From assembly GCA_018699955.1 (NCBI GenBank), contig JABISG010000123.1, forward strand, positions 1 through 64,000: 64,000 nt of DNA, in the 5' to 3' direction. The position numbers were made by a program, and so were the translations under genes. Shown here in pieces: positions 1 through 14,699 of the stretch. Source of the stretch: Planctomycetaceae bacterium (GTDB lineage: Bacteria > Planctomycetota > Planctomycetia > Planctomycetales > Planctomycetaceae). Numbering within the stretch: the stretch's first letter is position 1; every line of letters begins with the position of its first letter. The notes beneath the pieces are model-generated. The model made no database searches and had not been told where the DNA came from. It saw only the letters and a list, made by a program, of their open reading frames with translations.

Positions 1-46
1 CGCCAGTGCCTACCGCGTTACACTGGCGACACGCAAGTGGCACCCC
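1..46. repeat. Dispersed palindrome family C, copy inside a coding sequence
   Basis: CGCCAGTG (1-8) and CACTGGCG (21-28) form an inverted repeat. The following bases 21-46 match one arm and loop of the perfect hairpin at 63006-63036 with one difference. Here it is translated in frame as the linker just upstream of the phosphohistidine domain. Confidence 0.6.
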
Positions 47-389
47 TAAACCGGGGGGTGACAAGATTCTCAAGGGCATCGCGGCGAGTCCCGGGAGCAT
101 TGCGGGAACGGCTCACGTTGCTCGAAATGTCGAACAGGCGGCCGAAATGCAGATGGGGCAGATTCTTGTTTGTCCCTTTACCGATCCCGGTTGGACACCG
201 GTGCTGGACCGGGCTGCCGGTGTCGTGACTGAAACCGGTGGGCTGCTTTCGCATGCCGCCATCATCTGCCGCGAGTACGGCATTCCCGCAGTTCTGGGTG
301 TCGAGAATGCCACCAACCGTATTCGTCATGGAAGCACGCTTGTCATTCAGGGCGGCGAAGGCCGCGTGGAACTCACATCGATCAAGTAA
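1..389 (+). CDS. PEP-utilising (phosphohistidine) domain enzyme, C-terminal part only
   Basis: The reading frame is open to the left edge, so only the last ~129 codons are visible. They form the swivelling phosphohistidine domain shared by PEP synthase, pyruvate phosphate dikinase and rifampicin phosphotransferase. Diagnostic segments are GIAASPGSIAGTA, TDPGWTPVLDRAAGVV and GGLLSHAAIICREYGIPAVLG; the His in LLSHAA (codon 252-254) is the expected phosphate carrier. The ATP-grasp part must lie upstream. The domain is clearly homologous to the C-terminus of the complete enzyme ending at 11343, so the operon carries two paralogues. The codons just before the domain are made of a dispersed palindromic repeat (1-46) and spell LHWRHASGTP. 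Family assignment is firm; substrate unknown. Confidence 0.85.
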   Translation, partial: PVPTALHWRHASGTPKPGGDKILKGIAASPGSIAGTAHVARNVEQAAEMQMGQILVCPFTDPGWTPVLDRAAGVVTETGGLLSHAAIICREYGIPAVLGVENATNRIRHGSTLVIQGGEGRVELTSIK

Positions 390-405
390 ACAGGGAGAAC
401 AGGAC

Positions 406-1035
406 ATGAAACAGTATCGCGCATACATCCTGCTGCTGTGTTGTTGCTTTGCACCGGTCACTGCGGTGGCTCAAGACGAACCAGAAACTGCTGGAGCGGA
501 ATCGGCCGACGAAGCCGATCACGCCGAGTTGATTGCACTCCGAGAAGCGCTGGCCGCGGCTGTTCTCAAAGGCGATACAGAGGCTCAACTGGTGCATGCG
601 GATGAGAATATCGTCGCTACATGGCAGAACAATCAGGTGGTTCGTGGCCACGACGGGATGCGAAAGTTTCTCAACGAAATGAACGCCGGCAATGAGAAAG
701 TCTTTCAGGGGTATACGGTTCCTCCCACGGCAGACGAACTGACAATTCTGCACGGCGGCGACACTGGGATCGTCTTCGGTACATCGACTCCCCACTACAA
801 GTACCTGGGAATGGATTTTGAGCTGGAGAACCGCTGGACGGCGACAGTCATCAAAGATGACGGGAAATGGAAAATCGCGGCGTACCACGTCTCCGGCGAC
901 ATTACCGACAACCCGCTTCTGGCTGCAGCCAAGAACGGCGTTTACTGGGTTGGTGGCATTTCGTTGCTGGTTGGGCTGTTCGTCGGTGGATTCGGCGGCA
1001 GGCTGCTGCGAAAGAAACCCAAATCGGACGCGTGA
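406..1035 (+). CDS. Secreted or membrane-anchored NTF2-like (SnoaL/DUF4440-type) protein
   Basis: This is a 209-residue protein. The N-terminus MKQYRAYILLLCCCFAPVTA followed by VAQ looks like a signal peptide, and a hydrophobic stretch near residues 178-198 (VYWVGGISLLVGLFVGGFGG) ends in RLLRKKPK, suggesting a C-terminal membrane anchor with the domain outside. The middle (about residues 45-165) has the alpha+beta pattern of NTF2/SnoaL proteins: ALAAAVLKGDTEAQLVHADE, WQNNQVVRGHDGMRKFL and a final strand RWTATVIKDDGKWKIAAYHVS. Such folds can be isomerases, cyclases or binding domains. The ATG at 406 lies after GGGAGAACAGG, 16 bp after the previous stop, and the next gene starts 2 bp after its stop, so it sits in the operon. 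Function unknown. Confidence 0.75.
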   Translation: MKQYRAYILLLCCCFAPVTAVAQDEPETAGAESADEADHAELIALREALAAAVLKGDTEAQLVHADENIVATWQNNQVVRGHDGMRKFLNEMNAGNEKVFQGYTVPPTADELTILHGGDTGIVFGTSTPHYKYLGMDFELENRWTATVIKDDGKWKIAAYHVSGDITDNPLLAAAKNGVYWVGGISLLVGLFVGGFGGRLLRKKPKSDA

Positions 1036-1037
1036 TT

Positions 1038-2156
1038 ATGGGCGTCAAACTCAAACACCGGTGGAGCATCGGCCACAACTACCTTGCCGGGATTACCGCC
1101 GGGGCGTGGTGGCGGTTGCTGCGCGAAAATCGGTTCGCCGTCGATCCGGCCTATTGGCATCGGGCGGCGTTTATCACCGCTGCCAGTTTGCTCAATTCCT
1201 ATTACTGCCGCGGTGAGGAACGCCGTTACGGTCAGGCAGTTGAAGACGTTGAGATCACGCGGCCGCCGCTGTTTATTCTCGGCCATTGGCGCAGCGGGAC
1301 GACACTGCTGCATTATCTGCTCGCCCAGGACACGTCGCAGTTTGCATTTGCCAATACGTACCAGGTGGTCAACCCCTGTACGTTTCTCAGCACCGAGGAT
1401 GTGAACACACGGCGGTTTGCCCGCATGGTTCCGTCGATGCGTCCAATGGACAACATGGAACTCAGTTTTCGAACTCCACAGGAAGACGAATTCGCACCGC
1501 TGTTGCTCACGTTTCGCTCGTTGTATCTGGGGGTCAGCTTTCCGCGACGTGCGGCGCATTATTCGCGGTACCTCACGTTTCGGGATGTTCCCCGTGCCGA
1601 AATTGAGGAATGGCAGGCGGAGTTCATTCGGTTTTGCAAGAAACTGACGCTCAAGTACGACCGAGCTTTGCTGCTCAAGTCACCACCTCACACGGCGCGC
1701 ATTCGCTTACTGCTGGAGATGTTTCCCGATGCCCGGTTTGTTCACGTCCACCGAAATCCGTACCGCGTGTTCCAGTCACAACGGCATTATTTCGACACCG
1801 CCATGTGGTACACCTATCTGCAAAAGCCCGATCCCACAAAAACCGACGACGGAATTCTGCGACGCTACACCGCATTGTATGACGCTTTTTTTGACGACCG
1901 ACCGTTAATTCCTGAGGGGCGCTTCTGCGAGGTCCGCTTCGACGATCTGCAGCGAGATCCCGTCGGCGAAGTCCGCTCGATTTACGAAAAGTTGTCTCTC
2001 AGAGGATTCAAGGAAAACGAGCCGCAGCTGCAGTCGTATGTTGACTCGCTGTCGGACTACCGCAAGAACGAGTACCCGCCGCTCGATGAAGAAAGTCGCC
2101 GCCGCGTGGCGGAAGCTTGGGCGAGAAGTTTTGAGAAATGGAATTACCCCGTTTGA
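1038..2156 (+). CDS. PAPS-dependent sulfotransferase family protein
   Basis: This 372-residue protein would transfer a sulfuryl group from PAPS to a hydroxyl or amino group. The PAPS 5'-phosphosulfate loop is GHWRSGTTLLHYLL (G82 to about L95), LLLKSPPHTARI resembles the conserved KxPxH region, and VHVHRNPYRVFQSQ (R239) matches the 3'-phosphate binding site. Length and layout fit the Sulfotransf_3-like bacterial group. The ATG at 1038 is chosen because it is 2 bp after the upstream stop; an in-frame extension back to 867 would overlap the NTF2-like gene. The 3' end overlaps the P450 start by 19 bp. Acceptor unknown; the context suggests the product of this operon. Confidence 0.88.
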   Translation: MGVKLKHRWSIGHNYLAGITAGAWWRLLRENRFAVDPAYWHRAAFITAASLLNSYYCRGEERRYGQAVEDVEITRPPLFILGHWRSGTTLLHYLLAQDTSQFAFANTYQVVNPCTFLSTEDVNTRRFARMVPSMRPMDNMELSFRTPQEDEFAPLLLTFRSLYLGVSFPRRAAHYSRYLTFRDVPRAEIEEWQAEFIRFCKKLTLKYDRALLLKSPPHTARIRLLLEMFPDARFVHVHRNPYRVFQSQRHYFDTAMWYTYLQKPDPTKTDDGILRRYTALYDAFFDDRPLIPEGRFCEVRFDDLQRDPVGEVRSIYEKLSLRGFKENEPQLQSYVDSLSDYRKNEYPPLDEESRRRVAEAWARSFEKWNYPV

Positions 2157-3520
2157 CTGCACCAGAAATGAACGCACAAGCGACAAGAGTCAAGGCACCC
2201 GGCCCGCGGGGAGATTTCCTGCTCGGTTGCCTGTCGCATTTTCAGCGCGATGCCATCGGGCTGTTGTCGCGATCTGCCCAGGAGTACGGCGATGTCGTTC
2301 GTTTCCGGATGGGCCCGGTGGTGGCGCATCTGGTCAATCATCCGCAGCACGTCGAACACGTTCTACTGCACGGGGCCGAGAACTACGACAAACAAACCCG
2401 CAGTGTCTCGAAGATTCGCGCCACCTGCGGCGACAGTCTGTTGACATCCGATGGAGAAATGTGGCGGCGGCATCGCCAATTGATTCAACCCGCCTTTCGG
2501 CAGGAAACTCTCGAACGATTCGTGCCGGTGATTACTGAAACGACCAATGCCATGTTGAAGAATTGGCAGAATGTCGCCCGCGGTCGCGCTGAGATCAACA
2601 TCGTCTCGGAAATGATGCAATTGACCCTGAAGATTGCAGCACAGATCTTGTTCGGAGCCGATATTCAAGACGAAGCCGAGGTGATCGAGCGTTCGTTGGC
2701 CATCATATTGCGGGATACGTGGAGGCGTTTGGAGACACTGTTCGACACGTCGGTGGTTTCGCCGGCGTTTCATCGACGCCGGTTCCGTCGCGCTCTGCAG
2801 GAAATCGATTCGGTTGTCTACCGCATCATCGAAAACCGGCGTCAGTCCGGATCGTCGTCAGATGATCTGTTGTCGATGCTGCTCGATGCTCACGAAGCAG
2901 ACAGCGCGACCCGCTTGAGTGACCGGGAACTTCGCGATGCCGTCATCACACTGCTGCTGGCCGGTCACGAAACCACCGCGAATGCACTCGCCTGGACGTT
3001 CTATCTGGTGTCACAGTCGCCGGATGTTGAGGAATTGCTTCGCCGAGACGCCCTCGGCTTCGAGTCGGACCAAACGAGTTCCGCTGATTTGCATTACACC
3101 GGCATGGTGTTTTCTGAAGCGATTCGACTTTATCCGTCGGTGTGGATTATCGAGCGGCGGGCAGTCGCCGACGATGAAATCGGCGGTTATCACATTCCGG
3201 CCGGTTCAACCGTGTTGGTTTCACCGTATCTATTGCATCGCCATCCGGAATTCTGGGGCAACCCGGATGAGTTCGATCCGGAGCGGTTTACACCCGATCA
3301 ATGTGTCATGCGACCTCGGAACGCCTACATTCCGTTTGGTGTGGGGCCACACCAGTGCATTGGGAAGAACATGGCATCGCTTGTCGCGAAGCACGTGCTG
3401 GGTATGGTCTATCGGCAATTCCGCCCTCGTCTCGTTCCCGGACAAACCATCAAGGCGGAACCGCAAATCACGTTGCGGCACGCTGGGGGCTTGCGCATGA
3501 CTCTCCATGTCAATCAGTAG
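2138..3520 (+). CDS. Cytochrome P450
   Basis: Haem-thiolate monooxygenase of 460 residues, the usual length for a soluble bacterial P450. The I-helix oxygen-activation motif is AGHETT (A275-T280), the K-helix ExxR is in SEAIRLYPS, the PERF segment is DPERFTPDQ, and the haem loop is FGVGPHQCIGKNMA with the ligand C407. The N-terminal APGPRGDFLLGCLSHFQRD resembles CYP110/CYP120-type enzymes acting on fatty acids or terpenoids, which is only a hint of substrate. It needs a ferredoxin or reductase encoded elsewhere. The start at 2138 overlaps the sulfotransferase by 19 bp; ATG 2168 (MNAQATRV) is the alternative. Confidence 0.95.
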   Translation: MELPRLTAPEMNAQATRVKAPGPRGDFLLGCLSHFQRDAIGLLSRSAQEYGDVVRFRMGPVVAHLVNHPQHVEHVLLHGAENYDKQTRSVSKIRATCGDSLLTSDGEMWRRHRQLIQPAFRQETLERFVPVITETTNAMLKNWQNVARGRAEINIVSEMMQLTLKIAAQILFGADIQDEAEVIERSLAIILRDTWRRLETLFDTSVVSPAFHRRRFRRALQEIDSVVYRIIENRRQSGSSSDDLLSMLLDAHEADSATRLSDRELRDAVITLLLAGHETTANALAWTFYLVSQSPDVEELLRRDALGFESDQTSSADLHYTGMVFSEAIRLYPSVWIIERRAVADDEIGGYHIPAGSTVLVSPYLLHRHPEFWGNPDEFDPERFTPDQCVMRPRNAYIPFGVGPHQCIGKNMASLVAKHVLGMVYRQFRPRLVPGQTIKAEPQITLRHAGGLRMTLHVNQ

Positions 3521-3530
3521 AGACAATCGG

Positions 3531-5087
3531 ATGGCAGTGCAGTGTCAATCAACTCAACTGAAGCGAAGCAACGCCGCCAGCGAGCGGTGGGTGCTGTTCG
3601 CGACAGTCCTCGCGTCGAGCATGGCTTTTATCGATGCAACCGCACTCAACGTTGCCCTCCCGGCAATTCAGACTCAGTTCACCGCAACGGGTGTCGAACT
3701 GCTGTGGATTGTGAATTCGTACGCGCTTGTCGTTGCCGCACTGCTACTACTCGGCGGGGCGTTGGGCGATCATTTCGGTCGCCGGCGAATCTTCATGGCG
3801 GGCATTACGATATTTGCGGTCGCATCGCTCGCTTGCGGTTTGGCAGCCGGAACAAGATCACTCATCGCAGCCCGTGCGATTCAAGGGCTCGGTGCCGCGT
3901 TGATGATTCCCGGTAGCCTGTCGCTGATTTCCGCAACGTTTGAACCATCGCGCCGTGGCCGTGCCATCGGCGTGTGGTCGGCCTGCAGCGTGGTAATGAC
4001 TGCGCTGGGGCCAATCCTGGGTGGGCTGTTAGCGCAAGCCGGATTGTGGCGTGGCGTCTTCTTTGTCAATTTGCCATTGGCTTTGTTATCTCTGGTGATC
4101 TTAAAGGTGAAGGTTCCGGAAGACATCGACGAGACGACAAGCAGACCGCTCGATTACGGTGGCGCGTTGTTGAGTGTCGTCGGACTGGCATCGTTCAATT
4201 ACGGGCTCATCGAAGCGGCCAGTCGGGGCTGGCACGATCCATTCGTCGTCACAGGAACGGTGACAGGCATCATTTGTCTGGCTGCGTTCGCGCGTGTCGA
4301 ACGCCGCGCCGCTGCCCCGCTGCTTCCGCTTGATCTGTTTCACGATCACACTCTGGTCGCCGCCTGTTTTCAGACGCTCTGTTTCTATTCCGGTCTGTTC
4401 GGGATGATGTTCTTTCTGTCCCTGAACCTGATTCAGGTGCAGCAATACGATCCGGCATTTGCAGGGTTGGCGCAGTTGCCGTTGATGCTGCTGGTGGTGC
4501 TGCTGTCGCCGATGGCGGGGCGTTTGGTTGATCGCTACGGACCACGACTTCCGTTGGTCATTGGGGGGACGCTGGCAAGTCTTGGCTTTCTGGTGTTGGC
4601 GCAAACCGGGCTGACTGCCGGTCCGCGTGAATACTGGAGCAGCTTCCTCCCGGCGCTGACTCTGTTAGGACTGGCGATGGGGATTAGTGCCGCTCCTCTC
4701 AGTACCACGGTGATGAATTCCGTGCAGCACGAGCAGACGGGGGTTGGATCGGGAATCAACTCCACGCTATCCCGACTCTCAGCCGTGCTGGGGGTTGCCG
4801 TTCTCGGTTTAGTGGCGCTGTTGTCGTTCGAACATTCGTTGATGTCGCAGGTGTCTGAATTGCATTTGAGTTCAGAGGAGACCGCGATTCTGGCGAACGA
4901 GTCGATCAAGTTGGCCGAAGCACAGCCTCCACCGGGAATGCCGGTAGAAGCCGCTGCCGCAGTCAAACTGGAGATTAAGCGTGCCTACATCACCGCTTTT
5001 CGGAATGTGTCGTACGTCTGCGCCGGAACCGTTGGATTCAGCACACTAATCACCGCCGCACTGATTCCGCGTCGGACGGTCAGCTAA
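3531..5087 (+). CDS. MFS drug/metabolite exporter, DHA2 (EmrB/QacA) type
   Basis: Inner-membrane proton antiporter of about 518 residues with the 14-helix DHA2 pattern. The first helix motif MAFIDATALNVALPAIQ, motif A (GDHFGRRRIFMAGI) and motif C-like GPILGGLLAQAGLWRGVFFVN are all present. The hydrophilic C-terminal loop near residues 440-490 lies before the last helix, as in EmrB homologues. ATG 3531 is 10 bp after the P450 stop; ATG 3507, overlapping the P450, is also possible. Within this operon it most likely exports the product or gives self-resistance. Confidence 0.9.
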   Translation: MAVQCQSTQLKRSNAASERWVLFATVLASSMAFIDATALNVALPAIQTQFTATGVELLWIVNSYALVVAALLLLGGALGDHFGRRRIFMAGITIFAVASLACGLAAGTRSLIAARAIQGLGAALMIPGSLSLISATFEPSRRGRAIGVWSACSVVMTALGPILGGLLAQAGLWRGVFFVNLPLALLSLVILKVKVPEDIDETTSRPLDYGGALLSVVGLASFNYGLIEAASRGWHDPFVVTGTVTGIICLAAFARVERRAAAPLLPLDLFHDHTLVAACFQTLCFYSGLFGMMFFLSLNLIQVQQYDPAFAGLAQLPLMLLVVLLSPMAGRLVDRYGPRLPLVIGGTLASLGFLVLAQTGLTAGPREYWSSFLPALTLLGLAMGISAAPLSTTVMNSVQHEQTGVGSGINSTLSRLSAVLGVAVLGLVALLSFEHSLMSQVSELHLSSEETAILANESIKLAEAQPPPGMPVEAAAAVKLEIKRAYITAFRNVSYVCAGTVGFSTLITAALIPRRTVS

Positions 5088-5094
5088 TGGAACG

Positions 5095-6102
5095 ATGATG
5101 AAAACTGCGACCGAACAATTCGTGCAGATTGGAAACGCCGAACAATACTGTGCGTTTCGGCCGATGGCGGATCTTCCTTCGTTCGACGCGCAACTGCTGC
5201 AGGATCATTCCGTCGATGCACATTGGGCCATTATTGATGCCGGCCGAGTGACGGCGCGCTGCTCGCTGTGGTGGAAAAATGCACCGGCTCATCCGGAACA
5301 TCGGATTGGCCTGGTTGGTCATTATGCCGCGGCGACTGATGAGTCGGCTGCGGCTTTGCTGGAATTCGTCTGTCAACAACTGGCCGAAACGGGTTGCACG
5401 CTGGCGGTTGGCCCAATGGATGGAAACACGTGGCGAGATTATCGGTTTGTGACCGAAACGGGGGGTGAGCCGCGTTTCTTTCTCGAACCACACAACCGGC
5501 CCGATGGGCCGGCGCAATTCGTCCGCCAGGGATTCGGAGACTTCGCGCATTATTTCTCGGCACTGGTAACCGATCTCAAATTGACGTCGCCACGTTTGGA
5601 ACGCGTACAGAAACGGATGGCAAAACGCGGCATTCGCATTCGGTCAATTCGTAATGACACGTTCCAATCCGATTTACAGAAAATCTACACTGTTGCGCAG
5701 ACTGCCTTTCGTGAGCATACTCTCTACGACGAAATGGGCGAGTCCGAATTCCTGCGGCAATACGAATCGTTGCGGGGTGTTGTGCCGTTCGATCTTGTTT
5801 TGCTTGCCGAGCAGAAGGGCAGGGCGGTGGGATTCGGTTTTGCGGTACCCGATCTGCTTCAGGCCAGACGCGGGGAAACCGTTGATACGGTGGTCATTAA
5901 GACACTTGGCGTTCTGCCCGACCGCGAATTTGCCGGGTTGGGGCAACAGTTGCTCGAACAGATTCAACACCGCGCCTTCGCGCTCGGATATCGCCGGGCC
6001 ATCCATGCACTGGTTCGCGAAACGGGCCATCTACAAAAAATCAGCCGACGATATGCCGTACCCTTCAGGCGTTATTCGCTGTTCGCAAAGGGGCTGTGTT
6101 GA
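5095..6102 (+). CDS. GNAT-fold acyltransferase-like protein
   Basis: A 335-residue protein with two GNAT-like halves. The C-terminal half carries the acyl-CoA binding region: VVIKTLGVLPDREFAGLGQQ then LLEQIQHRAFALGYRRAIHA, where the loop between strand and helix is a degenerate R/Q-x-x-G-x-G/A. The N-terminal half (GHYAAATDESAAALLEFVCQ, LAVGPMDGNTWRDYRF) resembles the first half of two-domain GNAT or FemX-type proteins. It would transfer an acyl or aminoacyl group, perhaps to the molecule handled by its neighbours. Its TGA shares one base with the ATG of the ligase at 6102, suggesting translational coupling. Specificity cannot be read from sequence. Confidence 0.75.
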   Translation: MMKTATEQFVQIGNAEQYCAFRPMADLPSFDAQLLQDHSVDAHWAIIDAGRVTARCSLWWKNAPAHPEHRIGLVGHYAAATDESAAALLEFVCQQLAETGCTLAVGPMDGNTWRDYRFVTETGGEPRFFLEPHNRPDGPAQFVRQGFGDFAHYFSALVTDLKLTSPRLERVQKRMAKRGIRIRSIRNDTFQSDLQKIYTVAQTAFREHTLYDEMGESEFLRQYESLRGVVPFDLVLLAEQKGRAVGFGFAVPDLLQARRGETVDTVVIKTLGVLPDREFAGLGQQLLEQIQHRAFALGYRRAIHALVRETGHLQKISRRYAVPFRRYSLFAKGLC

Positions 6103-7676
6103 TGAATATTGCCGAGATATTGCGAAGCCACGCGGAAGATTGTCCCGATGAAATCGCTCTAGTCGACGTGTACCGTGGGTGTCGTCGCACGACAACATAC
6201 GGGGAATTGGAGCAGTCCATCGGTCGCACGGTGGCACTCTTTCGGCAATCGGGTTTAAACACAGACGATACAGTGCTGCTGTTTCATCCCATGTCGGCCG
6301 AACTTTACATCGCGCTGGCAGCGATCCTGCGGATGGGACTGACGGCGATGTTTATCGATCCCTCGGCCGGGCGGCGTTACATTGATCGTTGTTGCCAGTT
6401 GTTGCCGCCGCAAGCTCTGGTTGCCAGCTCAAAGGCGCACTTGCTGCGGTTACTTTCCCCCGCTTTACGCCGCATTCCGCTGAAGTTCTCCATCGGCGGT
6501 CGCGTACCGTTCGCCCACCGATTTGAACGGGCCGCACGGCTCGACTATGACGACATGATCTGTTCGTGCGAATCGGATCAGCCGGCGTTGGCAAGTTTCA
6601 CAAGCGGGAGTACCGGGGAACCGAAGGCGGCCCTTCGCACGCACGGTTTTCTGCTGGCGCAGCATCGGGCGATTGAAGAAAGTCTGGGACTCACGCCGGG
6701 CGAAGTCGAACTCGTAACACTGCCTATTTTTGTGCTGGCAAATCTTGCTTCCCGTGTGACGAGCATCATTGCCGATGCCGATTTGCGTCACCCGGCGGCA
6801 ATCTCTCCAGAACCGGTCGTCGCGCAGATCTGTGAGAGCGCGGCCAACCGCGCCGCTGCGTCTCCAGCATTCTTTGAACGCGTTGTTGATTTCTGTGAAG
6901 AACGAAACATACTGTTACCGACTCTCCAGAAACTTTTCACCGGCGGTGGCCCTGTCTCGCCACAATTGCTCGACCGCCTCCAGCAAGTCGCGCCGAACGC
7001 CGACATCATGGTCGTTTATGGTTCAACCGAAGCCGAACCCATCAGCACAATCAAGATTGGGGATATGGAAGGTGAAGACCGTGCGGCGATGACTGGCGGA
7101 CGCGGATTACTGGCCGGTCAACCCGTGCCTTCACTCGATGTCCGAATTATGAACGACCGCTGGGGGCGTTCCGTCGGACCATACACCACCGAACAATTCG
7201 ACACCGTTTGCCAGCCGGTTGGCGAGACGGGGGAAATCGTCGTCAGCGGTGATCATGTTCTGTCCGGTTACCTACATGGGCAGGGAGAAGACGAAAACAA
7301 GTTTTGCGTCGCTGGAACACGTTGGCATCGCACCGGCGATGCGGGCTACTTCGACAGTCGCGGTCGCCTCTGGTTGCTGGGGCGCAGTGCAGCACGCGTC
7401 GATGACGACCGCGGCGCGCTGTATCCGCTTGGCGTGGAACAGGCGGCATTACGGCATCCGCATATCCGCCAGGCCGCGATGGTCGCGCATCGCGGGCAAC
7501 GTGTCTTGGCGGTCACATTGAGCGATCAAACCGAACAGCCGGATCTTGCCTCGCTACTCAAGTCGCTGTCATTTGCGAGTGTCGACTCGATTCGCATTCT
7601 GAAACGGTTGCCAGTGGATAGGCGACACAATTCAAAGATTGACTACCCCGCCTTATACAGATTGCTGGAGCCATGA
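6102..7676 (+). CDS. Acyl-AMP/acyl-CoA ligase (ANL superfamily), OleC-like
   Basis: ATP-dependent carboxylate-activating enzyme of 524 residues. The phosphate-binding loop is FTSGSTGEPKAALRTH (T167-K175), the A5 motif is YGSTEAEPI, the A7/A8 hinge is HRTGDAGYFDSRGRLWLLGR, and the A10 lysine is K512 in PVDRRHNSKIDY. The STEAEPI motif resembles OleC beta-lactone synthetases and related acyl-AMP ligases more than acetyl-CoA synthetase, a judgement from memory. ATG 6102 overlaps the previous stop by one base; the GTG and TTG codons at 6096 and 6099 are less likely. Its own TGA overlaps the next ATG (ATGA at 7673). No carrier protein gene is visible nearby. Confidence 0.9.
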   Translation: MNIAEILRSHAEDCPDEIALVDVYRGCRRTTTYGELEQSIGRTVALFRQSGLNTDDTVLLFHPMSAELYIALAAILRMGLTAMFIDPSAGRRYIDRCCQLLPPQALVASSKAHLLRLLSPALRRIPLKFSIGGRVPFAHRFERAARLDYDDMICSCESDQPALASFTSGSTGEPKAALRTHGFLLAQHRAIEESLGLTPGEVELVTLPIFVLANLASRVTSIIADADLRHPAAISPEPVVAQICESAANRAAASPAFFERVVDFCEERNILLPTLQKLFTGGGPVSPQLLDRLQQVAPNADIMVVYGSTEAEPISTIKIGDMEGEDRAAMTGGRGLLAGQPVPSLDVRIMNDRWGRSVGPYTTEQFDTVCQPVGETGEIVVSGDHVLSGYLHGQGEDENKFCVAGTRWHRTGDAGYFDSRGRLWLLGRSAARVDDDRGALYPLGVEQAALRHPHIRQAAMVAHRGQRVLAVTLSDQTEQPDLASLLKSLSFASVDSIRILKRLPVDRRHNSKIDYPALYRLLEP

Positions 7677-8668
7677 GCGTATCCACCGACGGCGGAGAGG
7701 ACGTCGCCAGTGCCACGCAGCCGGGCGCCAACTCCCGGTTGGTAACGCGACTCCGCGCCTACATGTCCGAGCGATTTCCGCTGCTGGGACATGGCGTGCT
7801 GATCTTCAGCTTCTATTCCTCGAATCAGTTTCTCGCCCATGCACTTGGCCGCCCGGGCGAGGCGATGCAGTACGATTTCAGCTCGCTGTGCGGTTACCTC
7901 ACCATTCTCTGTTTTTTCTTGCATCTACGGATCTTCGATGATCACAAGGATTACGCTGCCGATTGCCGCCACTTTCCTCAACGCGTGTTGCAGCGCGGCG
8001 TGGTGACGCTGGGCGAACTGAAAGTGCTGGGGGGAATCGCGATAGTGCTGGAGTTTGCGTTCGCCGCGATTTGCGGACCGGCTGCGCTGATCGCGGTGCT
8101 GGCGGCGTTTTGTTTCAGTCTGTTGATGCTGAAAGAGTTCTTCGTCGCCGACTGGCTGAAACGGCGGTTTCTCGTTTACGCATCCGTCCACATGTTGATC
8201 ATGCCGCTGTTGGCCATGATTGTGTACAGCTTTGCGACCGGGGAGTTCCTGTGGGACGCGCCGCAATGGTTCTGGCTGTATTCGTTCGTCGGATTCTTTG
8301 TCGCCTTCAACTGGGAAGTGTCGCGGAAGATTCGGGCACCGGAAGAAGAAATTGACGGCGTCGATTCCTATACCCGTTTGTTCGGCACCTACGGAGCGGC
8401 TTATCTGGTGCTCGTCATTCGCGTCATCGACACAGGGTTGGTCACGCTGGTCGGACTGCATCTCGGTTTGAGCGCGTGGTTCTACGTGCTGTTGGTTTTG
8501 TTGTTTATGGTTTGCATGGTCGGCTTCTTTCAATTTCGTTTTCAAACCTCACCGACCACCGCGCATCGGATGGAAATCTATGCGGGCATTTACATCTTTG
8601 CCTTCGATCTGGCACTGGCGATTGAACTGGGGCGAACGTACGGCATTCAATTCAGCGGGGCGTTGTGA
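7673..8668 (+). CDS. UbiA-family membrane prenyltransferase-like protein
   Basis: This is a 331-residue integral membrane protein with about eight or nine hydrophobic helices. The first Mg-prenyl-diphosphate motif of UbiA enzymes (N/D-D-x-x-D-x-x-x-D) is present as D89, D90, D93 and D97 in RIFDDHKDYAAD. A second acidic loop, KIRAPEEEIDGVDSYTRLFG, falls where the second Asp-rich motif is expected. UbiA proteins join an isoprenoid diphosphate to an aromatic, sugar or lipid acceptor in the membrane. It overlaps the ligase by 4 bp and the next gene by 1 bp, so the three are probably co-translated. Acceptor unknown. Confidence 0.82.
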   Translation: MSVSTDGGEDVASATQPGANSRLVTRLRAYMSERFPLLGHGVLIFSFYSSNQFLAHALGRPGEAMQYDFSSLCGYLTILCFFLHLRIFDDHKDYAADCRHFPQRVLQRGVVTLGELKVLGGIAIVLEFAFAAICGPAALIAVLAAFCFSLLMLKEFFVADWLKRRFLVYASVHMLIMPLLAMIVYSFATGEFLWDAPQWFWLYSFVGFFVAFNWEVSRKIRAPEEEIDGVDSYTRLFGTYGAAYLVLVIRVIDTGLVTLVGLHLGLSAWFYVLLVLLFMVCMVGFFQFRFQTSPTTAHRMEIYAGIYIFAFDLALAIELGRTYGIQFSGAL

Positions 8669-11343
8669 TGTCTACGCCATTAGTAATCGATGGCAGTAAA
8701 ATATCTGCTGAAAGTCCGCCTCATCTGGTGGGTGGGAAGGCGGCAAATCTGCGGCGGCTGCAGGAACTCGACCAGCCTGTCCCCCCGTTTTATGTCATCA
8801 CGATCGACAGCGCCACCATTACGAACGAATTGGAACAGGCCATTCGCGCAGCCCACTTGCGGTGTTTTGCAGGTGGAGGGACGGTGGCCGTGCGTTCGTC
8901 GGCGGTCGCCGAAGACGGCGCGAAGCACTCGTTCGCAGGCATGTATGACAGCGTACTCGGCGTGGGCGACATTGAAGATGTACTCTCCGCGATCAAACAG
9001 GTGTGGGCGTCGGCTTCCAGCCCGCGCGTCATCGCCTACCGTAAGCTTCATGGTTTGCCGCTCATCGACACCGGGATGGCCGTCATCGTGCAACGGATGA
9101 TCGACGCACGGCAATCGGGCGTCTGCTTCACGTGTGATCCAGCGACCGGATCACCGCACGAGATCGTCATCAACTCCCTTTTCGGAGTCGGCGAGGGTTT
9201 GGTTGGTCGGGGCTTTGCTGCAGATAGTTACACCGTTGCGAAGCAGACGATGAAAGTCACGCGCGAATTGGCCGAAAAGCAAACGCAGCTACTGCTTGTT
9301 GAAGAGCAGGGTGGACTGCAACAGCTGGAAGTGAACGAGGCCGATCGGCATTGTAGCTCACTCACCGATCAGCAGGTTCAGCAAGTGGCACGGGCAGCGC
9401 GGGAGATCGAGGACAGTTTCGGAAAACCGCAAGATATTGAATTCTGTTTTTCGCACGAGGGGGAACTGTTCATTCTGCAAACGCGTCCGGTGACGGGATT
9501 AGTCGATGAGAGAAACCCCACAGCGAGAAACCCGGTTTCTTCAAGAAACCGGGTTTCTGACACTCGCCCTTCGACAAGCAACCATGTTATCTGGGACAAC
9601 AGCAACATCATCGAGAGTTATTCCGGCGTCACCACGCCGATGACATTCAGCTTCATCCGGCGGGCCTACTCCATCGTTTATCACTGCTTCTCTGAAGTCA
9701 TGGGCATCTCGCCCCGCGCGGTGCACGAGCATCGCGATGCGTTCGACAACATGCTTGGCCTGTTTCGCGGGCGGGTGTACTACAACCTGAAAAACTGGTA
9801 TCGGCTGGTGCGCCTATTCCCCGGCTACAATTACAACAGCCGCTTCATGGAATCGATGATGGGGCTGAAGGAGCCGCTGTTTGTCGAGGAAGAGACGAAG
9901 CAGCCGAGCCGAATGCGCCGCTGGTTCGTCGATTTCCCCGCACTGCTGCGGCTATTGCTCCGCTCGGGTTGGAACTTCTTCCGCATTCGCACGATTGTCG
10001 AACGATTTCAGCAGCACTTCCACCTCCATTACGACGAGTGGTCGGAAATCGATTTCGATAGCATGCAACCGCACGAACTGATGTCGCTGCACGCGAAGAT
10101 GGAAGAGACGCTGCTTTGGAACTGGAAAGCCCCAATCATCAACGACTTCTACGTCATGGTGTTTTACGGCGTCCTCCGGAAAATGTGCGCGAGTTGGTGC
10201 GGTGATGAATCCGGCTCGCTACAGAACGGGCTGATTTGCGGCGAAGGCGGACTGCAAAGCGACGAGCCGGCGAAACTACTGATCCGCATGGCCGGCATCG
10301 CCCGGAACGATAATGCACTACGCACATTGATTCTCGACGAATCGGTGGAGTCGTTGCCCGTATTGATTGCCGGCGATTCGCGGTTCGGAGAGTTCAACGA
10401 GTTGATGGCTCGTTATCTCGACGACTATGGACTCCGCTGCGAAAACGAACTCAAGCTGGAAGCGTTTTCCTACCGGGAACAACCGCATCGGCTGTATCAG
10501 ATTGTCCGCAGCTACCTGTCGTGCGATGATGCGACAATGTGTGACGTTTCGGCGGTCGAGGCACGGGAACAAGAAGTCCGCGCCGATGCCGAGCAGCGTT
10601 GTCGCGAGGCCTTGTCGCAATCGCGAAGTTGGCTTCCGCGGCGGATGCTCTTCAAGCGGGTGCTACGCAACGCACGGCTGGGCGTCCGCAATCGCGAAAA
10701 CATGCGGTTTGCGCGGACTCGAATCTACGGCATTCTGCGGAGCATGTTGCGGTCCATCGGTCAGCAGCTGGCCGACGAAGGTGTGCTGGATGATCGCGAA
10801 GACGTCTTCTATCTCACCATTGACGAAGTGTGGGATTTCGTGCGCGGCACGGCCGTGTCCACCGATCTGCGCGGATTAGCCAACCTCCGCCGTTGTGAAT
10901 ACGACGCCTATCGCGAGGAAACCGTCCCGCCTCCCGACAGCCGATTTGAAACGTTCGGTATGGCCTACCATCGCAACCAATTCCGGAATGAGACGGCACC
11001 GACAGATGTGAGCAGCAATGGTTCGCTATCGGGAATCGGCTGTTGTCCCGGTGTCATCACCGGCAGCGTACAAGTCGTTCGCGAATTGTCGAATGGCGAC
11101 GGTTTTCGTGGCGACATTCTCGTCGCCGAGCGCACCGATCCTGGCTGGGTGCCGTTGTTCCCCGCGTTCAGCGGTATTCTCATCGAACGCGGCAGCGTGC
11201 TGTCGCATTCGGCCATCGTTGCGAGGGAGATGGGCATCCCGACCATCGTCGGTATCACCGGCCTCACCGATCAGCTGCGGACCGGGCAACAAATCAAGAT
11301 GGACGGTCGCGCCGGCACGATCGAAATCCTCACCAAAGATTGA
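8668..11343 (+). CDS. PEP synthase / rifampicin-phosphotransferase-like three-domain enzyme
   Basis: This 891-residue protein has three parts. Residues 1 to about 280 are a PPDK_N ATP-grasp domain (LVGGKAANLRRL, AVRSSAVAEDGAKHSFAGMY, SGVCFTCDPATGSPHEIVIN, ELFILQTRPV). Residues about 310-770 are a middle domain starting NSNIIESYSGVTTPMT, which parallels the substrate domain of rifampicin phosphotransferase. The last ~100 residues are the phosphohistidine domain with H847 in GSVLSHSAIVAREMG. True PEP synthase and PPDK carry a C-terminal PEP-binding barrel after the His domain; it is absent, which favours the RPH-like class (ATP gamma/beta chemistry on a small molecule). A palindromic repeat encodes residues ~287-297. 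ATG 8668 overlaps the UbiA stop by one base. Confidence 0.88.
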   Translation: MSTPLVIDGSKISAESPPHLVGGKAANLRRLQELDQPVPPFYVITIDSATITNELEQAIRAAHLRCFAGGGTVAVRSSAVAEDGAKHSFAGMYDSVLGVGDIEDVLSAIKQVWASASSPRVIAYRKLHGLPLIDTGMAVIVQRMIDARQSGVCFTCDPATGSPHEIVINSLFGVGEGLVGRGFAADSYTVAKQTMKVTRELAEKQTQLLLVEEQGGLQQLEVNEADRHCSSLTDQQVQQVARAAREIEDSFGKPQDIEFCFSHEGELFILQTRPVTGLVDERNPTARNPVSSRNRVSDTRPSTSNHVIWDNSNIIESYSGVTTPMTFSFIRRAYSIVYHCFSEVMGISPRAVHEHRDAFDNMLGLFRGRVYYNLKNWYRLVRLFPGYNYNSRFMESMMGLKEPLFVEEETKQPSRMRRWFVDFPALLRLLLRSGWNFFRIRTIVERFQQHFHLHYDEWSEIDFDSMQPHELMSLHAKMEETLLWNWKAPIINDFYVMVFYGVLRKMCASWCGDESGSLQNGLICGEGGLQSDEPAKLLIRMAGIARNDNALRTLILDESVESLPVLIAGDSRFGEFNELMARYLDDYGLRCENELKLEAFSYREQPHRLYQIVRSYLSCDDATMCDVSAVEAREQEVRADAEQRCREALSQSRSWLPRRMLFKRVLRNARLGVRNRENMRFARTRIYGILRSMLRSIGQQLADEGVLDDREDVFYLTIDEVWDFVRGTAVSTDLRGLANLRRCEYDAYREETVPPPDSRFETFGMAYHRNQFRNETAPTDVSSNGSLSGIGCCPGVITGSVQVVRELSNGDGFRGDILVAERTDPGWVPLFPAFSGILIERGSVLSHSAIVAREMGIPTIVGITGLTDQLRTGQQIKMDGRAGTIEILTKD
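9526..9558. repeat. Dispersed palindrome family B inside the phosphotransferase gene
   Basis: AGAAACCCGGTTTCT, the spacer TCA, and its exact reverse complement form a 15-bp perfect hairpin. The same sequence with two changes forms the hairpin at 40386-40420. Here it is translated in frame as NPVSSRNRVS in the linker after TRPV, the end of the ATP-grasp domain. Confidence 0.85.
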
Positions 11344-11367: not shown

Positions 11368-12465
11368 TCAGCGAACTTCATCGACCTGGAAATGACAATA
11401 GAAAAATGCTTTGTCGCGCGAAAACAGTTCGGCCGACAGTTCCGGTAGCGGTTGAACTCGATCGACAAACTCTGCCGGACAAGAACGCGGCACGAGTGTA
11501 TTCCAATATGCGAGGCGTGCGCCCGGTTTGGCGACATTCAGCAGTTCGCCGTAGAGTCCACGCGATGCATCGTCGTTCACGTACTCGAAAATATCGGATA
11601 GGTTGAAGGCATCGAAGCCGTCAACGGCGTGCGCGACGGCCGCCTGTTCTATCGGCCCGTGAAATAATGTTAGCCGTTCGAGTCCGCTGCGGACTGCCTC
11701 GAAGTGCTCTCGCCGCAGGTAACGAGGCAGCGCCGTCCCAAAGTTGCCGGTGGCGATATACTGCAGATACGGATTGCAGTCGGTCGGCAACACGGTCAGC
11801 GCGTATCGGGCGCGCCGCATAATTCGATCAGAGACTGAGCCTTCCACATAGCGAAAGAATTCCGGATCACGTCCCAGACGGCCCATCAGAAACCGACTGA
11901 AGAAAACGCGAAACAACAGCCGCCATCGCCAGTTGTTCCAGGAGTCGTTCCAGAACGCCTCACGTGTCGCCGCGTCCTTCGGTTCCAACAGTTGTGCAAT
12001 TCGCTTACGCGAATGAATCAACGGCAGCACCCGCGTGCGGAACATCCGGAAATAGTCTTCGAACTTTCCTTTGTGGATGATCCCAACGGCAACATGCTGC
12101 GAATGGGCTGCCCAAAATCCACGTGACTCACGCGACAAGTCGCTTTCCAGTGACGCATAAGTCGCCAGACGATCATCGGCCGCTTGAACGCCGAGAAACG
12201 CCAACAATTCCTCGTATTCGAGTTGTCGAAACGCGGCACAGCGCAATTCCAGGCAGGCGAGTTGGGCAGTACTTAAATCAGCCGCAACAACTTCCGCCCC
12301 CTGAGCCAACAGCGCCAACGAATTGTCGCCAGCCGATGCAATTGAAAGCACCCGCGAACCGGGTCGAGGCCGAAGCGCCGCCACAAGAATGTCGGCATCT
12401 TCCCAGCAGTTCGCATAACGGACAAAGTCGAATGTCGTTCGGTGTTGAATCTGATCGTGTTCCAT
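11368..12465 (-). CDS. BtaA/DUF3419-family 3-amino-3-carboxypropyl transferase
   Basis: The 365-residue protein matches the DUF3419 family, whose characterised member BtaA moves the 3-amino-3-carboxypropyl group of SAM onto diacylglycerol to start betaine-lipid (DGTS) synthesis. Visible family features are FDFVRYANCWEDADILVAAL, the SAM-site segment VLSIASAGDNSLALLAQGAE, VVAADLSTAQLACLELRCAA, and DCNPYLQYIATGNFG followed by LPRYLRREHFEAVR. The ATG at 12465 shares one base with the stop of the methyltransferase upstream (TGATG), so the two are coupled. Family confidence is high; diacylglycerol as the acceptor is inferred, since not every DUF3419 member is BtaA. Confidence 0.82.
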   Translation of the reverse strand: MEHDQIQHRTTFDFVRYANCWEDADILVAALRPRPGSRVLSIASAGDNSLALLAQGAEVVAADLSTAQLACLELRCAAFRQLEYEELLAFLGVQAADDRLATYASLESDLSRESRGFWAAHSQHVAVGIIHKGKFEDYFRMFRTRVLPLIHSRKRIAQLLEPKDAATREAFWNDSWNNWRWRLLFRVFFSRFLMGRLGRDPEFFRYVEGSVSDRIMRRARYALTVLPTDCNPYLQYIATGNFGTALPRYLRREHFEAVRSGLERLTLFHGPIEQAAVAHAVDGFDAFNLSDIFEYVNDDASRGLYGELLNVAKPGARLAYWNTLVPRSCPAEFVDRVQPLPELSAELFSRDKAFFYCHFQVDEVR

Positions 12466-13079
12466 CAGATACGCCGGATGATGCAGAACCAAGCCAGCGG
12501 ACCGCCCTTCGTGAATTCGGATCCGGTCAAATCAGGGCGATCTTCAAAGCGGGCTTCGGTGATCGACTCCACCTCCCAGCCGGTTGCGAAAGTGGCACGA
12601 ATTTCATCTTGTGTCAGCCGCTTCGGTCCACCGGACCCCGGTTCTTTGTCGCTGAAGCAAAGCAGAAACAGGCGCCCACCCGATTTGGTTACGGCCGACA
12701 ACTCTCGGATATACGCGGGCCGGTGCTCAATCGCAAAGACGTGAAACAGGCCGCAGTCGATGACGCTGTCGAATTGCCCGTCGAGTTCAGAGAGTTGCAG
12801 GGCATCTTTGACGAGGAAGGAAACATCAAGGTTCCGTGAAGTCGCCTTGGCGCGGGCGCGTTCGATAGCCACTTCCACGAAGTCTACGCCTACAACCTCC
12901 TGCCCGCGCTCGGCGAAGAAGAGGGCGTTGTCGCCGGTGCCGCATCCCGCATCGAGCACACGACCACTGATCAAATCGGCGACATCAACAAACTGTTGGC
13001 GTGGTTTGTAGATTTCCCAGGGAGGTACGGTCTCATACGCCGCCGCAAAACGCTGCTTCGGCGGAAGTTTCTCGGCCAT
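12465..13079 (-). CDS. Class I SAM-dependent methyltransferase
   Basis: A 204-residue Rossmann methyltransferase. Motif I is VLDAGCGTGDNALFFAERG, the acidic end of strand 2 is VVGVDFVEVAIERARAKA, and motif IV is FDSVIDCGLFHVF. The N-terminal PKQRFAAAYETVPPWEIYKP resembles the thiopurine-methyltransferase-like group. It overlaps the BtaA-like gene by one base and is about the size of BtaB, the N-methyltransferase that turns the BtaA product into DGTS, so a BtaB-like role is a reasonable guess from context only. It lies 48 bp downstream of the sulfatase, on the same strand. The ATG at 13079 is the only good start. Confidence 0.85.
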   Translation of the reverse strand: MAEKLPPKQRFAAAYETVPPWEIYKPRQQFVDVADLISGRVLDAGCGTGDNALFFAERGQEVVGVDFVEVAIERARAKATSRNLDVSFLVKDALQLSELDGQFDSVIDCGLFHVFAIEHRPAYIRELSAVTKSGGRLFLLCFSDKEPGSGGPKRLTQDEIRATFATGWEVESITEARFEDRPDLTGSEFTKGGPLAWFCIIRRI

Positions 13080-13127: not shown

Positions 13128-14624
13128 TTACTCGATCCCAACCGTTTTCTTAAAGGCGGCAAGCTGCGGATCGTTGGTCGTCTGCATGTGCTGCAATAGT
13201 TCGGCGGTTAACGAGTAGACATGATGCTTCATTTTCGGATCTGCGATCAAGTTGTGCAGAGCATCGGGGTCTTGCTGGTAATCGTAAAACTCCATTGGTA
13301 CGCGGTAGGCGAAGTGCTTCACGCGGGCAGCGATCTTGGGATCGGATTTTGCCGCCGCCACCATCGCCCGCCACGTCAGGCCAGCCTGAGACTCATTCTT
13401 GAACGTCGTCTTTCCGTCCGACCAGCCGTTCCAGATCAAGCCGTAACGTGCCGTCTGCACCGAACGCATTGGGTAGGATCGCTTGGATGCGATGGTGTTG
13501 AGATGCGTGTAGACGTATTCGCGATCCGCTTGTGCCTGTCCCTTGAGAACCGTCAGGAAACTGTTGCCGTCCATTCCCTTCATTGGTTCGATGTGTAGCG
13601 CATCAAAAATTGTGGGCGCAAAATCGACGCCGGCGATCAAATGCTTCGTGTCGTGCGACCCCGCTTTCACAACGCCGGGCCAACGCACAATCCACGGCGT
13701 TCGCGTCGAATTTCGCCACACGTTTGTCTTGGCGAAGGGGACGGCAATTCCGTGATCCGACTTGCACATCACGATCGTGTTGTCGGCAAAGCCGGCGGAG
13801 TTCAAACTGGCAAGAATCACACCAACAACATCGTCGGCGCGCCGAACCGAGCTGTAGTACTGCGCAATCTCCTCGCGAATCGGCGGTAGATCGGGCAGGA
13901 ACGCCGGCACGACGATTTCGTCGGGTTGGTAGATTCTGGAGGGCGCCGGGTAAGGGCCGCGCTGTCTCTGGCGTTTGTTATTGGCCTTCTTCTTGCCAGC
14001 CTGTGGCGATGCAACTTTCCGTTTGTCGGCCGGCTTTCGATTGTCAAATGGTCGGTGGGGATCGTGAGCGTTGACCATGAAGAAGAACGGCTGCTTGGAC
14101 TCTTTCGCCTTCTCGAAGAACTCGCCGGCAAACTTCTGATACAGAACGGCGCTGCGGCCGTTCTTCATTTCGTTCCGGCCACGTTTGTAGTCGAATGCCT
14201 GCTTGCGAGAGGGAACAACATGCTCGGTCTTGCCGAGGATGCCGGTGAGATAGCCGTTGGCCTTCAACGTTTCCGGCAGTGTGGGAACACTGCGGTTGAT
14301 GGTGTTGAATCCCAAGGCTCCGCTGTTGTGTGGGTAGCGGCCGGTCATCCAGGCGGCACGCGTCGGTTGGCAGATGGCAATGGTCACATGGGCATGTTCA
14401 AACCGCATGCCTTCGCTCGCCAGCCGATCGATGTTCGGCGTCGTGTCGGGAACCTTCGCTCCGAATGCTCCCACCGAATCCCAGTTCATATCATCGAGCG
14501 TAATGAACAGCACGTTGAGTTGCTCGGCGGCGGTACCCGATGTGGCAATGAACCACAGCCCGGCGGCGAGAATTCCAATCCACATTCGCATCATGGGAGA
14601 CTTGTCCTTACTTGTTGTTCTCAT
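13128..14624 (-). CDS. Secreted type I sulfatase
   Basis: This 498-residue hydrolase removes sulfate esters, probably from polysaccharides, outside the cytoplasm. A signal peptide (MMRMWIGILAAGLWFIATSG, cut near TAA-EQ) precedes the catalytic start NVLFITLDDMNWDSVGAFG with metal-binding D44-D45. C85 in CQPTRAAWMTGR is the residue that must be oxidised to formylglycine. Further features are HDPHRPFD and CKSDHGIAVPFAKTNVWRNS. A separate maturase is needed and is not in the window. Starts: ATG 14624 is used; ATG 14594, right at the signal peptide, is equally possible, and GTG 14642 less so. It heads a likely operon with the methyltransferase and BtaA-like gene. Confidence 0.93.
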   Translation of the reverse strand: MRTTSKDKSPMMRMWIGILAAGLWFIATSGTAAEQLNVLFITLDDMNWDSVGAFGAKVPDTTPNIDRLASEGMRFEHAHVTIAICQPTRAAWMTGRYPHNSGALGFNTINRSVPTLPETLKANGYLTGILGKTEHVVPSRKQAFDYKRGRNEMKNGRSAVLYQKFAGEFFEKAKESKQPFFFMVNAHDPHRPFDNRKPADKRKVASPQAGKKKANNKRQRQRGPYPAPSRIYQPDEIVVPAFLPDLPPIREEIAQYYSSVRRADDVVGVILASLNSAGFADNTIVMCKSDHGIAVPFAKTNVWRNSTRTPWIVRWPGVVKAGSHDTKHLIAGVDFAPTIFDALHIEPMKGMDGNSFLTVLKGQAQADREYVYTHLNTIASKRSYPMRSVQTARYGLIWNGWSDGKTTFKNESQAGLTWRAMVAAAKSDPKIAARVKHFAYRVPMEFYDYQQDPDALHNLIADPKMKHHVYSLTAELLQHMQTTNDPQLAAFKKTVGIE

Positions 14625-14699
14625 TGCGCTTGTTTCAATCACCGAGGTTACGTTTGTCTTCCAATATACTCGAATTGCAATCCGCCATCAGCCAAAAAA

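Follow-up and report, generated by a model that had tools for sequence, protein, structure and literature searches.

A conserved planctomycete operon that may be an amine-type variant of a widespread lipid-assembly cassette

The window (the whole 64,000-nucleotide stretch of DNA analysed here) opens on nine co-directional genes, most of a biosynthetic operon that lacks PKS, NRPS and terpene-cyclase genes and is apparently undescribed, as a sequence-only reading had proposed; the operon is also conserved. With about even confidence, we read it as the amine-type form of a lipid-assembly cassette that is widespread but undescribed, to which a P450, a sulfotransferase and an exporter have been added. 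The observed basis is gene content, gene order, conservation, intact catalytic motifs and domain architecture; from these we infer the substrates, the order of steps and the product, and together they suggest a modified long-chain amine that would receive a prenyl chain, a hydroxyl and a sulfate group before export. A product of this kind might be missed by standard cluster finders.

All nine tightly packed frames of the sequence-only reading were found in place on the + strand (window 1..11343), and each of its family assignments was confirmed with Pfam. With gene starts read off the sequence, the junctions are gaps of at most 13 bp or overlaps of 4-19 bp (from g1 to g9: +13, +2, -19, -14, +7, -7, -4 and -4 bp). 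The nine genes and the convergent pair that follows them are:

1..389, + strand: g1, C-terminal 128 codons of PEPS2 (a second PEP-synthase-like protein), phospho-His mobile domain (PF00391, 91.8 bits)
406..1035, + strand: g2, NTF2/SnoaL-like DUF4440 protein (weak Pfam match, 25.7 bits against a cut-off of 25.2)
1038..2156, + strand: g3, PAPS-dependent sulfotransferase (Sulfotransfer_3, 131 bits; RSGTT motif)
2138..3520, + strand: g4, cytochrome P450 (p450, 294.7 bits; heme-Cys motif FGVGPHQCIG)
3507..5087, + strand: g5, DHA2/EmrB-type MFS exporter (Pfam MFS_1; TIGR00711, 277 bits, above cut-off)
5095..6102, + strand: g6, tandem GNAT acyltransferase (Pfam GNAT; model pLDDT 94.5)
6096..7676, + strand: g7, acid-activating AMP ligase, PRK09274/OleC-like (Pfam AMP-binding)
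7673..8668, + strand: g8, UbiA-superfamily prenyltransferase (PF01040, 39.6 bits against a cut-off of 34.2)
8665..11343, + strand: g9, PEPS1, RedH/PigC/Rph-like (Pfam PPDK_N and PEP-utilizers)
11368..12465, - strand: DUF3419, BtaA-like aminocarboxypropyl transferase (214 bits against a cut-off of 28.2)
12465..13079, - strand: SAM methyltransferase, translationally coupled to DUF3419

These nine genes are real, but the operon is larger than had been proposed, the sequence-only reading having missed two genes upstream as well as DUF3419. Because the window begins where contig C172 begins, base 1 being a contig end, g1 is a 3′ fragment of PEPS2, not a small stand-alone gene; the call of a phosphohistidine enzyme holds for its PEP-utilizers mobile domain. 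About 600 N-terminal residues of PEPS2 lie at the end of contig C5 (G000:C5, locus L160). Residues 22-610 of the intact PEPS2 of another planctomycete, L068 (722 aa), match C5:10680-12431 and residues 619-722 match C172:69-380; the intact version in a verrucomicrobium, L123, has 713 aa. From these matches we infer that the PEPS2 frame is divided between both contigs, whose ends gave no overlap, with about 10 PEPS2 residues uncertain at the join. At least two further operon genes are thereby placed upstream on C5, a TamH-like fusion followed by the start of PEPS2. Downstream, the DUF3419 gene is convergent on the opposite strand, 24 bp past the last operon stop, and L068 has its counterpart (61% identity) at the corresponding position, oriented alike; it belongs to the conserved operon gene set. 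Membership of the methyltransferase is uncertain, since it adjoins DUF3419 but has homologues in three relatives for which the UbiA search turned up no cassette. The whole operon thus spans ~14.4 kb and comprises ten genes plus the convergent DUF3419 gene.

Catalytic motifs in the encoded enzymes are intact. The AMP ligase g7 (61% identity in L068, 68% in L061) retains its adenylation motifs and A10 lysine, and g8 carries DDxxDxxxD and a second motif, ExxRKxRxPxxE; the key residues of both motifs are invariant across an alignment of 21 UbiA sequences, including R-x-x-D-x-x-K-D-x-x-x-D. The g6 model matched tandem GNATs in Foldseek, e.g. MAB_4324, glucosamine N-acetyltransferase and MshD. The g2 protein, which appears to have a signal peptide and, at its C terminus, a membrane segment, is conserved in L068 and L123, and the g3 sulfotransferase is 67% identical in both. 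Many planctomycetes also have homologues of this sulfotransferase elsewhere than in the cassette.

The active histidine of g9 (H848) is invariant in alignment. In g9 and in the PEPS2 of L068, Pfam finds PPDK_N and the mobile domain only, with no C-terminal pyruvate/PEP-binding TIM-barrel domain. The NCBIfam scores of g9 were 334 bits for PigC (cut-off 1300), 386 for RedH (cut-off 1350) and 332 for RIF_Ptrans_rph (cut-off 999). Because these PigC/RedH and Rph matches fall far below the curated cut-offs, PEPS1 may be either a ligase or a simple kinase. A phosphorylated product, for which the sequence-only reading allowed, is only one possible outcome for the two Rph-like proteins, which match the ATP-dependent prodiginine ligases RedH/PigC too. 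It is highly improbable that the locus is a resistance or detoxification island, with Rph-like, GNAT, P450, sulfotransferase and exporter proteins inactivating a xenobiotic. The 332-bit Rph-type match, the DHA2 exporter and the GNAT would fit such a role, but that score is far under its cut-off, four of the encoded proteins (UbiA, AMP ligase, TamH-like and DUF3419) serve biosynthesis, and most genomes have the core without a window-type exporter or sulfotransferase. No PADLOC match indicating a defence role was obtained with the five proteins tried.

The case for an amine comes from the fusion gene on C5, which lies ahead of PEPS2 and joins a class-III aminotransferase (NCBIfam PigE, 319 bits) to an acyl-ACP-reductase-like domain. 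The reductase half matches PigE (4ppm, 1.3e-14) and acyl-ACP reductase (6jzq, 3e-9; TIGR04058), and a Cys is visible in its AAR-type GCMAE motif. This architecture identifies a TamH/PigE-type fusion of aminotransferase and acyl-thioester reductase, with the domain order of TamH. In Pseudoalteromonas tunicata, TamH has this same order and works together with TamA, an adenylating enzyme, to produce fatty amines (PMC9594044). The fusion also keeps similar company elsewhere: in L051 the AMP ligase adjoins it, followed by PEPS1, GNAT and UbiA, and adenylating or PEPS genes flank it in L188, L190, L191, L192 and L194. Among 392 planctomycete-phylum genomes, its reductase and UbiA occur together in 12 against 1.1 expected (nominal P 3e-12, without correction for relatedness), and the fusion is found in none of the six HMGR-type cassette genomes. 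TamH-like fusion, PigC/RedH-like proteins and adenylating enzyme would also suit a prodiginine/tambjamine-like alkaloid, in which the PEPS proteins couple a long-chain amine to an aromatic aldehyde. We consider this improbable, given that the operon has no genes for the bipyrrole (MBC) aldehyde and that prodiginine/tambjamine pathways have no role for UbiA, DUF3419 or GNAT.

The gene order, whose conservation had been named as a check on the operon, recurs whole in L068 and is shuffled in L123; the window subtype is confined to few genomes (its own, L068 and L123). The set had been taken for one not recognised elsewhere, but its core of AMP ligase, tandem GNAT, UbiA and PigC/Rph-like phosphotransferase is common to many phyla. 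At fully flanked UbiA loci, we found the phosphotransferase in 41/41, the ligase in 39/41, the GNAT in 39/41, an HMG-CoA-reductase-like enzyme in 37/41 and DUF3419 in 19/41 (gene calls in relatives from a home-made codon-usage caller). The association goes far beyond chance, since L068 repeats the order and dozens of genomes, picked out solely for their UbiA similarity, contain the core. A chance join of two operons, the core g6-g9 with DUF3419 beside an unrelated PEPS2-NTF2-sulfotransferase-P450-MFS module, is quite improbable. Most relatives do have g6-g9 without g2-g5, and the sulfotransferase homologues away from the cassette would fit such a join, but both halves are present in L068 and, reordered, in L123, so their association has outlived rearrangement. 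Mirror-tree correlations were high for nearly all gene pairs, with no separation of sub-modules; the window UbiA/PEPS and GNAT/ligase pairs have partly different nearest relatives. A plasmid search returned one partial UbiA match and no match for the AMP ligase. In an annotated plasmid record, two cassette genes are labelled hypothetical.

Many relatives appear to be of an alcohol type. Their HMGR-like proteins have the catalytic Glu, Lys, Asp and His in 26/26 cases, and the HMG-carboxylate-binding Arg (human R590) is absent from 23 of the 26 aligned. In many of them a kinase, c9, lies near UbiA and is similar to a phytol-kinase-like protein of cyanobacteria (hhalign probability 99); searching the PDB with the c9 fold yielded no usable match, and assignment of its C-terminal half to DUF92 (VTE6-like) was rejected as too weak a similarity. 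A gamma-proteobacterial type carries an HMGR-APH kinase fusion, a CDP-alcohol transferase and CarS-like, LolA-like and MMPL proteins, and L042 has a male-sterility-type reductase in a cassette-type cluster. That three unrelated thioester reductases (HMGR-like, TamH-like and male-sterility-type) are used argues for acid-to-aldehyde/alcohol reduction as a core step. The best reading is one long-chain pathway in two flavours, alcohol (HMGR-like enzyme and lipid kinase) and amine (TamH-like).

A possible, though less probable, alternative is that a long-chain alcohol is the starting point for a structural or outer-membrane lipid built by the core, the window encoding a sulfated amine-based member and not a secondary metabolite. 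Here an HMGR-like reductase and lipid kinase would be followed by PEPS and UbiA, and the head group would come by a BtaA-like or CDP-alcohol route. The phytol-kinase-like resemblance of c9, the gamma-proteobacterial gene complement, the broad spread of the cassette among phyla and the inclusion of the betaine-lipid synthase BtaA in the DUF3419 family all favour it. However, neither HMGR nor c9 was found in the window genome, the EmrB-type drug-like exporter, P450 and sulfotransferase fit a secreted product, and the distribution is patchy, with no strong UbiA relative among 59 close relatives searched.

In the amine-type pathway that we favour, g7 would activate a long-chain acid, and the TamH-like protein would convert the thioester to an aldehyde and then a long-chain amine. 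A point against this route is that no carrier protein gene was recognised among the operon genes, although TamH required an ACP-bound substrate in vitro (PMC9594044). PEPS2 and/or PEPS1, modelled on PigC/TamQ-type ligases, may then spend ATP, through the phospho-His domain, on activating a carbonyl or hydroxyl group for coupling. UbiA would add a prenyl or other allylic chain, DUF3419 would transfer a 3-amino-3-carboxypropyl group from SAM, and an amine would be acylated by the tandem GNAT before hydroxylation by the P450, sulfation by the sulfotransferase and export by the MFS protein. The earlier tailoring logic of prenylation, oxidation, sulfation and export seems reasonable. More speculatively, and with considerable doubt, the cassette may define an undescribed cross-phylum class of natural lipids, built from interchangeable thioester reductases, a PigC/Rph-like enzyme and UbiA. 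An HMGR-like, TamH-like or male-sterility-type reductase would turn the activated acid into an alcohol or amine, the phospho-His enzyme would phosphorylate or couple it, and UbiA would attach a prenyl-type chain, its donor possibly a long-chain diphosphate from outside the isoprenoid pathway.

The core has been kept in lineages as far apart as Planctomycetota, Bacteroidota, Photorhabdus, Marinobacter and cyanobacteria, but no description of the gene set was found in the literature searched (open-licence papers). Its hosts in culture (Photorhabdus, Thalassolituus and Sphingobacterium) make it directly testable. It would show what PigC/Rph-like proteins do beyond prodiginines and DUF3419 beyond betaine lipids, and would give a role to a family of HMG-CoA-reductase-like enzymes whose HMG-binding arginine has been lost.

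No described pathway was found to match, although several share parts. In phytol salvage, the VTE5 kinase supplies UbiA-type transferases, much as c9 lies near UbiA in alcohol-type relatives, but the window genome has no c9, and acid activation, HMGR-like enzymes and PEPS are foreign to that route. The betaine-lipid BtaA/BtaB system shares the DUF3419 domain, which in the window has a methyltransferase beside it as a possible BtaB counterpart; here, however, DUF3419 is part of a UbiA/PEPS cassette, and the methyltransferase may not be specific to it. From the Ole beta-lactone/olefin pathway comes only a distant OleC likeness of g7 (NCBIfam 203 bits against 900 and 179 against 850), the operon having no oleA, oleB or oleD. 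Rifampin phosphotransferase Rph likewise has ATP-binding and phospho-His domains and no pyruvate domain, but g9 adjoins UbiA in a biosynthetic setting. Prodigiosin PigE/PigC and undecylprodigiosin RedH belong to the domain families of the fusion and PEPS proteins; the NCBIfam cut-offs are not reached, however, the operon has no prodiginine genes, and the PigE reductase is N-terminal (PMC8341465), unlike that of the window-genome fusion. Tambjamine TamA-TamH-TamQ likewise combines an adenylating enzyme, a fusion and a PigC-type PEPS protein (PMC9594044, PMC6667630); compared with that module, the window operon dispenses with the bipyrrole genes and adds UbiA, GNAT, DUF3419, a P450, a sulfotransferase and a second PEPS protein.

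Pfam and NCBIfam scans confirmed that bases 1-11343 of the window hold nine plus-strand genes of the families named from sequence alone. Their tiny gaps and overlaps also held (junctions of +13, +2, -19, -14, +7, -7, -4 and -4 bp; starts read from sequence), a spacing such as would be expected for a single transcription unit. The P450 heme-cysteine motif (FGVGPHQCIG), the PAPS-binding RSGTT of the sulfotransferase, the adenylation motifs (SGSTGEPK/YGSTE/TGD) and A10 lysine of the AMP ligase (gene 7) and the DDxxDxxxD motif of UbiA (gene 8) are unbroken, and gene 9, a PEP-synthase-like protein (PEPS1), retains its phospho-histidine. Gene 1 had been called a phosphohistidine enzyme; the family was right, but the gene is cut at the contig start, and the window holds just the last 128 codons of what is a larger protein (PEPS2).

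An uncut PEPS2 homologue in a planctomycete MAG (locus L068; 722 aa, PPDK_N plus mobile domain) matches the end of another contig of the window genome, C5, with residues 22-610 and the window start with residues 619-722; C5 terminates 57 bp past its PEPS2 match. We infer that C5 adjoins the window contig (C172); no overlap turned up between the two contig ends and about ten PEPS2 residues are uncertain, but the intact PEPS2 in L068 and in L123 strengthens this reading. Upstream of PEPS2 on C5, overlapping it by 17 bp, lies the gene for an 836 aa TamH-like protein. The N-terminal portion belongs to the class-III aminotransferases (top NCBIfam match prodigiosin PigE, 319 bits), and its C-terminal ~390 aa match both the PigE reductase domain (PDB 4ppm, 1.3e-14) and a cyanobacterial acyl-ACP reductase (6jzq, 3e-9; TIGR04058). 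The following gene could be the first of the operon:

C5 of the window genome (G000; locus L160), 6986-8014, plus strand: methionine-synthase-family gene, MetE C-terminal-like, 129 bp upstream of the TamH-like gene

The window variant recurs, in whole or in part, in other genomes.

Gene order at related loci
L068 (planctomycete MAG): PEPS2, NTF2, sulfotransferase, P450, MFS, GNAT, ligase, UbiA, PEPS1; order as in the window
L123 (Verrucomicrobiaceae): sulfotransferase, P450, MFS, UbiA, PEPS1, TamH-like, PEPS2, NTF2, DUF3419, GNAT
L061 (Rubripirellula MAG): GNAT, ligase, UbiA, PEPS1; 50-76% identity
L051 (distant planctomycete locus): ligase, TamH-like, PEPS1, GNAT, UbiA in one row; PEPS2 nearby

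L068 also carries a TamH-like gene fragment at its contig start and a convergent DUF3419 (BtaA-like) gene at the far end. In the window, two genes lie on the DUF3419 side of the operon:

12465-13079, minus strand: methyltransferase coupled to DUF3419
13128-14642, minus strand: sulfatase-like gene just past the methyltransferase (family judged by eye only), close to the sulfotransferase-containing operon

Homologues of the methyltransferase occur in three relatives where the UbiA search found no cassette.

A UbiA-alignment scan returned 494 relatives, the best 80 of which spread over many phyla. In the 41 loci whose UbiA gene is flanked by 6.5 kb or more on either side, a PEPS gene was present in 41/41, GNAT in 39/41, the ligase in 39/41, an HMGR-like gene in 37/41, DUF3419 in 19/41 and a membrane kinase (c9) in 16/41. 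These counts are independent of the query because UbiA alone served for retrieval; several related loci per genus (e.g. Photorhabdus) mean fewer independent events than the counts suggest. Photorhabdus species (L078-L096) cluster UbiA, HMGR-like, PEPS, GNAT and AMP ligase genes. A 137 kb Roseinatronobacter plasmid (L175; NZ_CP121116.1) bears the core cassette, labelled in its record as UbiA, PEP/pyruvate-binding, DUF3419, two hypotheticals and AMP-binding. At L069 (4183-4992), the AMP ligase and UbiA genes are separated by genes for an AbiEii-type nucleotidyltransferase and for a protein of 210 aa.

The thioester reductase of most cassette relatives is HMGR-like (PF00368), with the catalytic Glu, Lys, Asp and His in 26/26 proteins; the HMG-carboxylate-binding Arg, which we take to be human R590 of HMG-CoA reductase, is missing in 23/26. 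Often accompanying it is c9, similar over its N-terminal half to a cyanobacterial protein (hhalign probability 99), presumably phytol kinase; several loci (L100, L102, L116 and others, including Bacteroidota) have a c9 of roughly 220 aa lacking the C-terminal half. One gammaproteobacterial locus (L084, 10939-13710) fuses HMGR to an APH-type kinase, and at another (L098, 19262-20426) CDP-alcohol transferase and CarS-like proteins adjoin the cassette. A search of the window genome found neither HMGR nor c9; there, as in some other planctomycetes, the TamH-like protein replaces the HMGR-like reductase. Of 392 genomes, 12 carry both a TamH-type reductase and UbiA, against 1.1 expected (relatedness and assembly size ignored), and the reductase is found in 0/6 genomes with HMGR-type cassettes. 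A third type, a male-sterility-type acyl reductase, overlaps DUF3419 at L042 (17130-18380), where the cluster has no HMGR-like gene. We place acid reduction at the pathway core mainly because such clusters repeatedly carry a thioester reductase from one of three unrelated families.

Enzyme families and their order are observed; we infer every substrate in the scheme that follows. Gene 7 would activate an acid, which the TamH-like protein would reduce and transaminate. The PEPS proteins may perform ATP-driven activation or coupling and UbiA a prenyl-type transfer, the PEPS roles and the UbiA donor being the largest uncertainties. DUF3419 would transfer an aminocarboxypropyl group, the tandem GNAT (model pLDDT 94.5; closest folds tandem GNATs) would N-acylate, and hydroxylation, sulfation and export would end the pathway.

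The sequence-only reading had recognised no described pathway in this gene set, and we likewise found no description of the core or the window variant in the open-licence literature, which is not proof of novelty. The operon combines known enzyme families in a conserved but, in that literature, undescribed arrangement. Gene 9 as a PEP synthase was ruled out, as it has no pyruvate domain; it scores far under the curated cut-offs for Rph, PigC and RedH, and gene 7 scores under those for OleC and PRK09274. In tambjamine synthesis, TamH and the adenylating enzyme TamA convert fatty acids to amines (PMC9594044). TamQ, which corresponds to PigC, carries out the subsequent condensation of the amine (PMC6667630). 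TamH has the aminotransferase-then-reductase order of the 836 aa protein (PMC9594044), whereas in PigE the order is reversed (PMC8341465). Given these roles and the matching families, the operon holds counterparts of all three: gene 7 for TamA, the TamH-like protein for TamH and the two PEPS proteins for TamQ. We rejected a prodiginine or tambjamine cluster because the operon contains no bipyrrole genes; it may work in the manner of the tambjamine tail module while falling outside that class.
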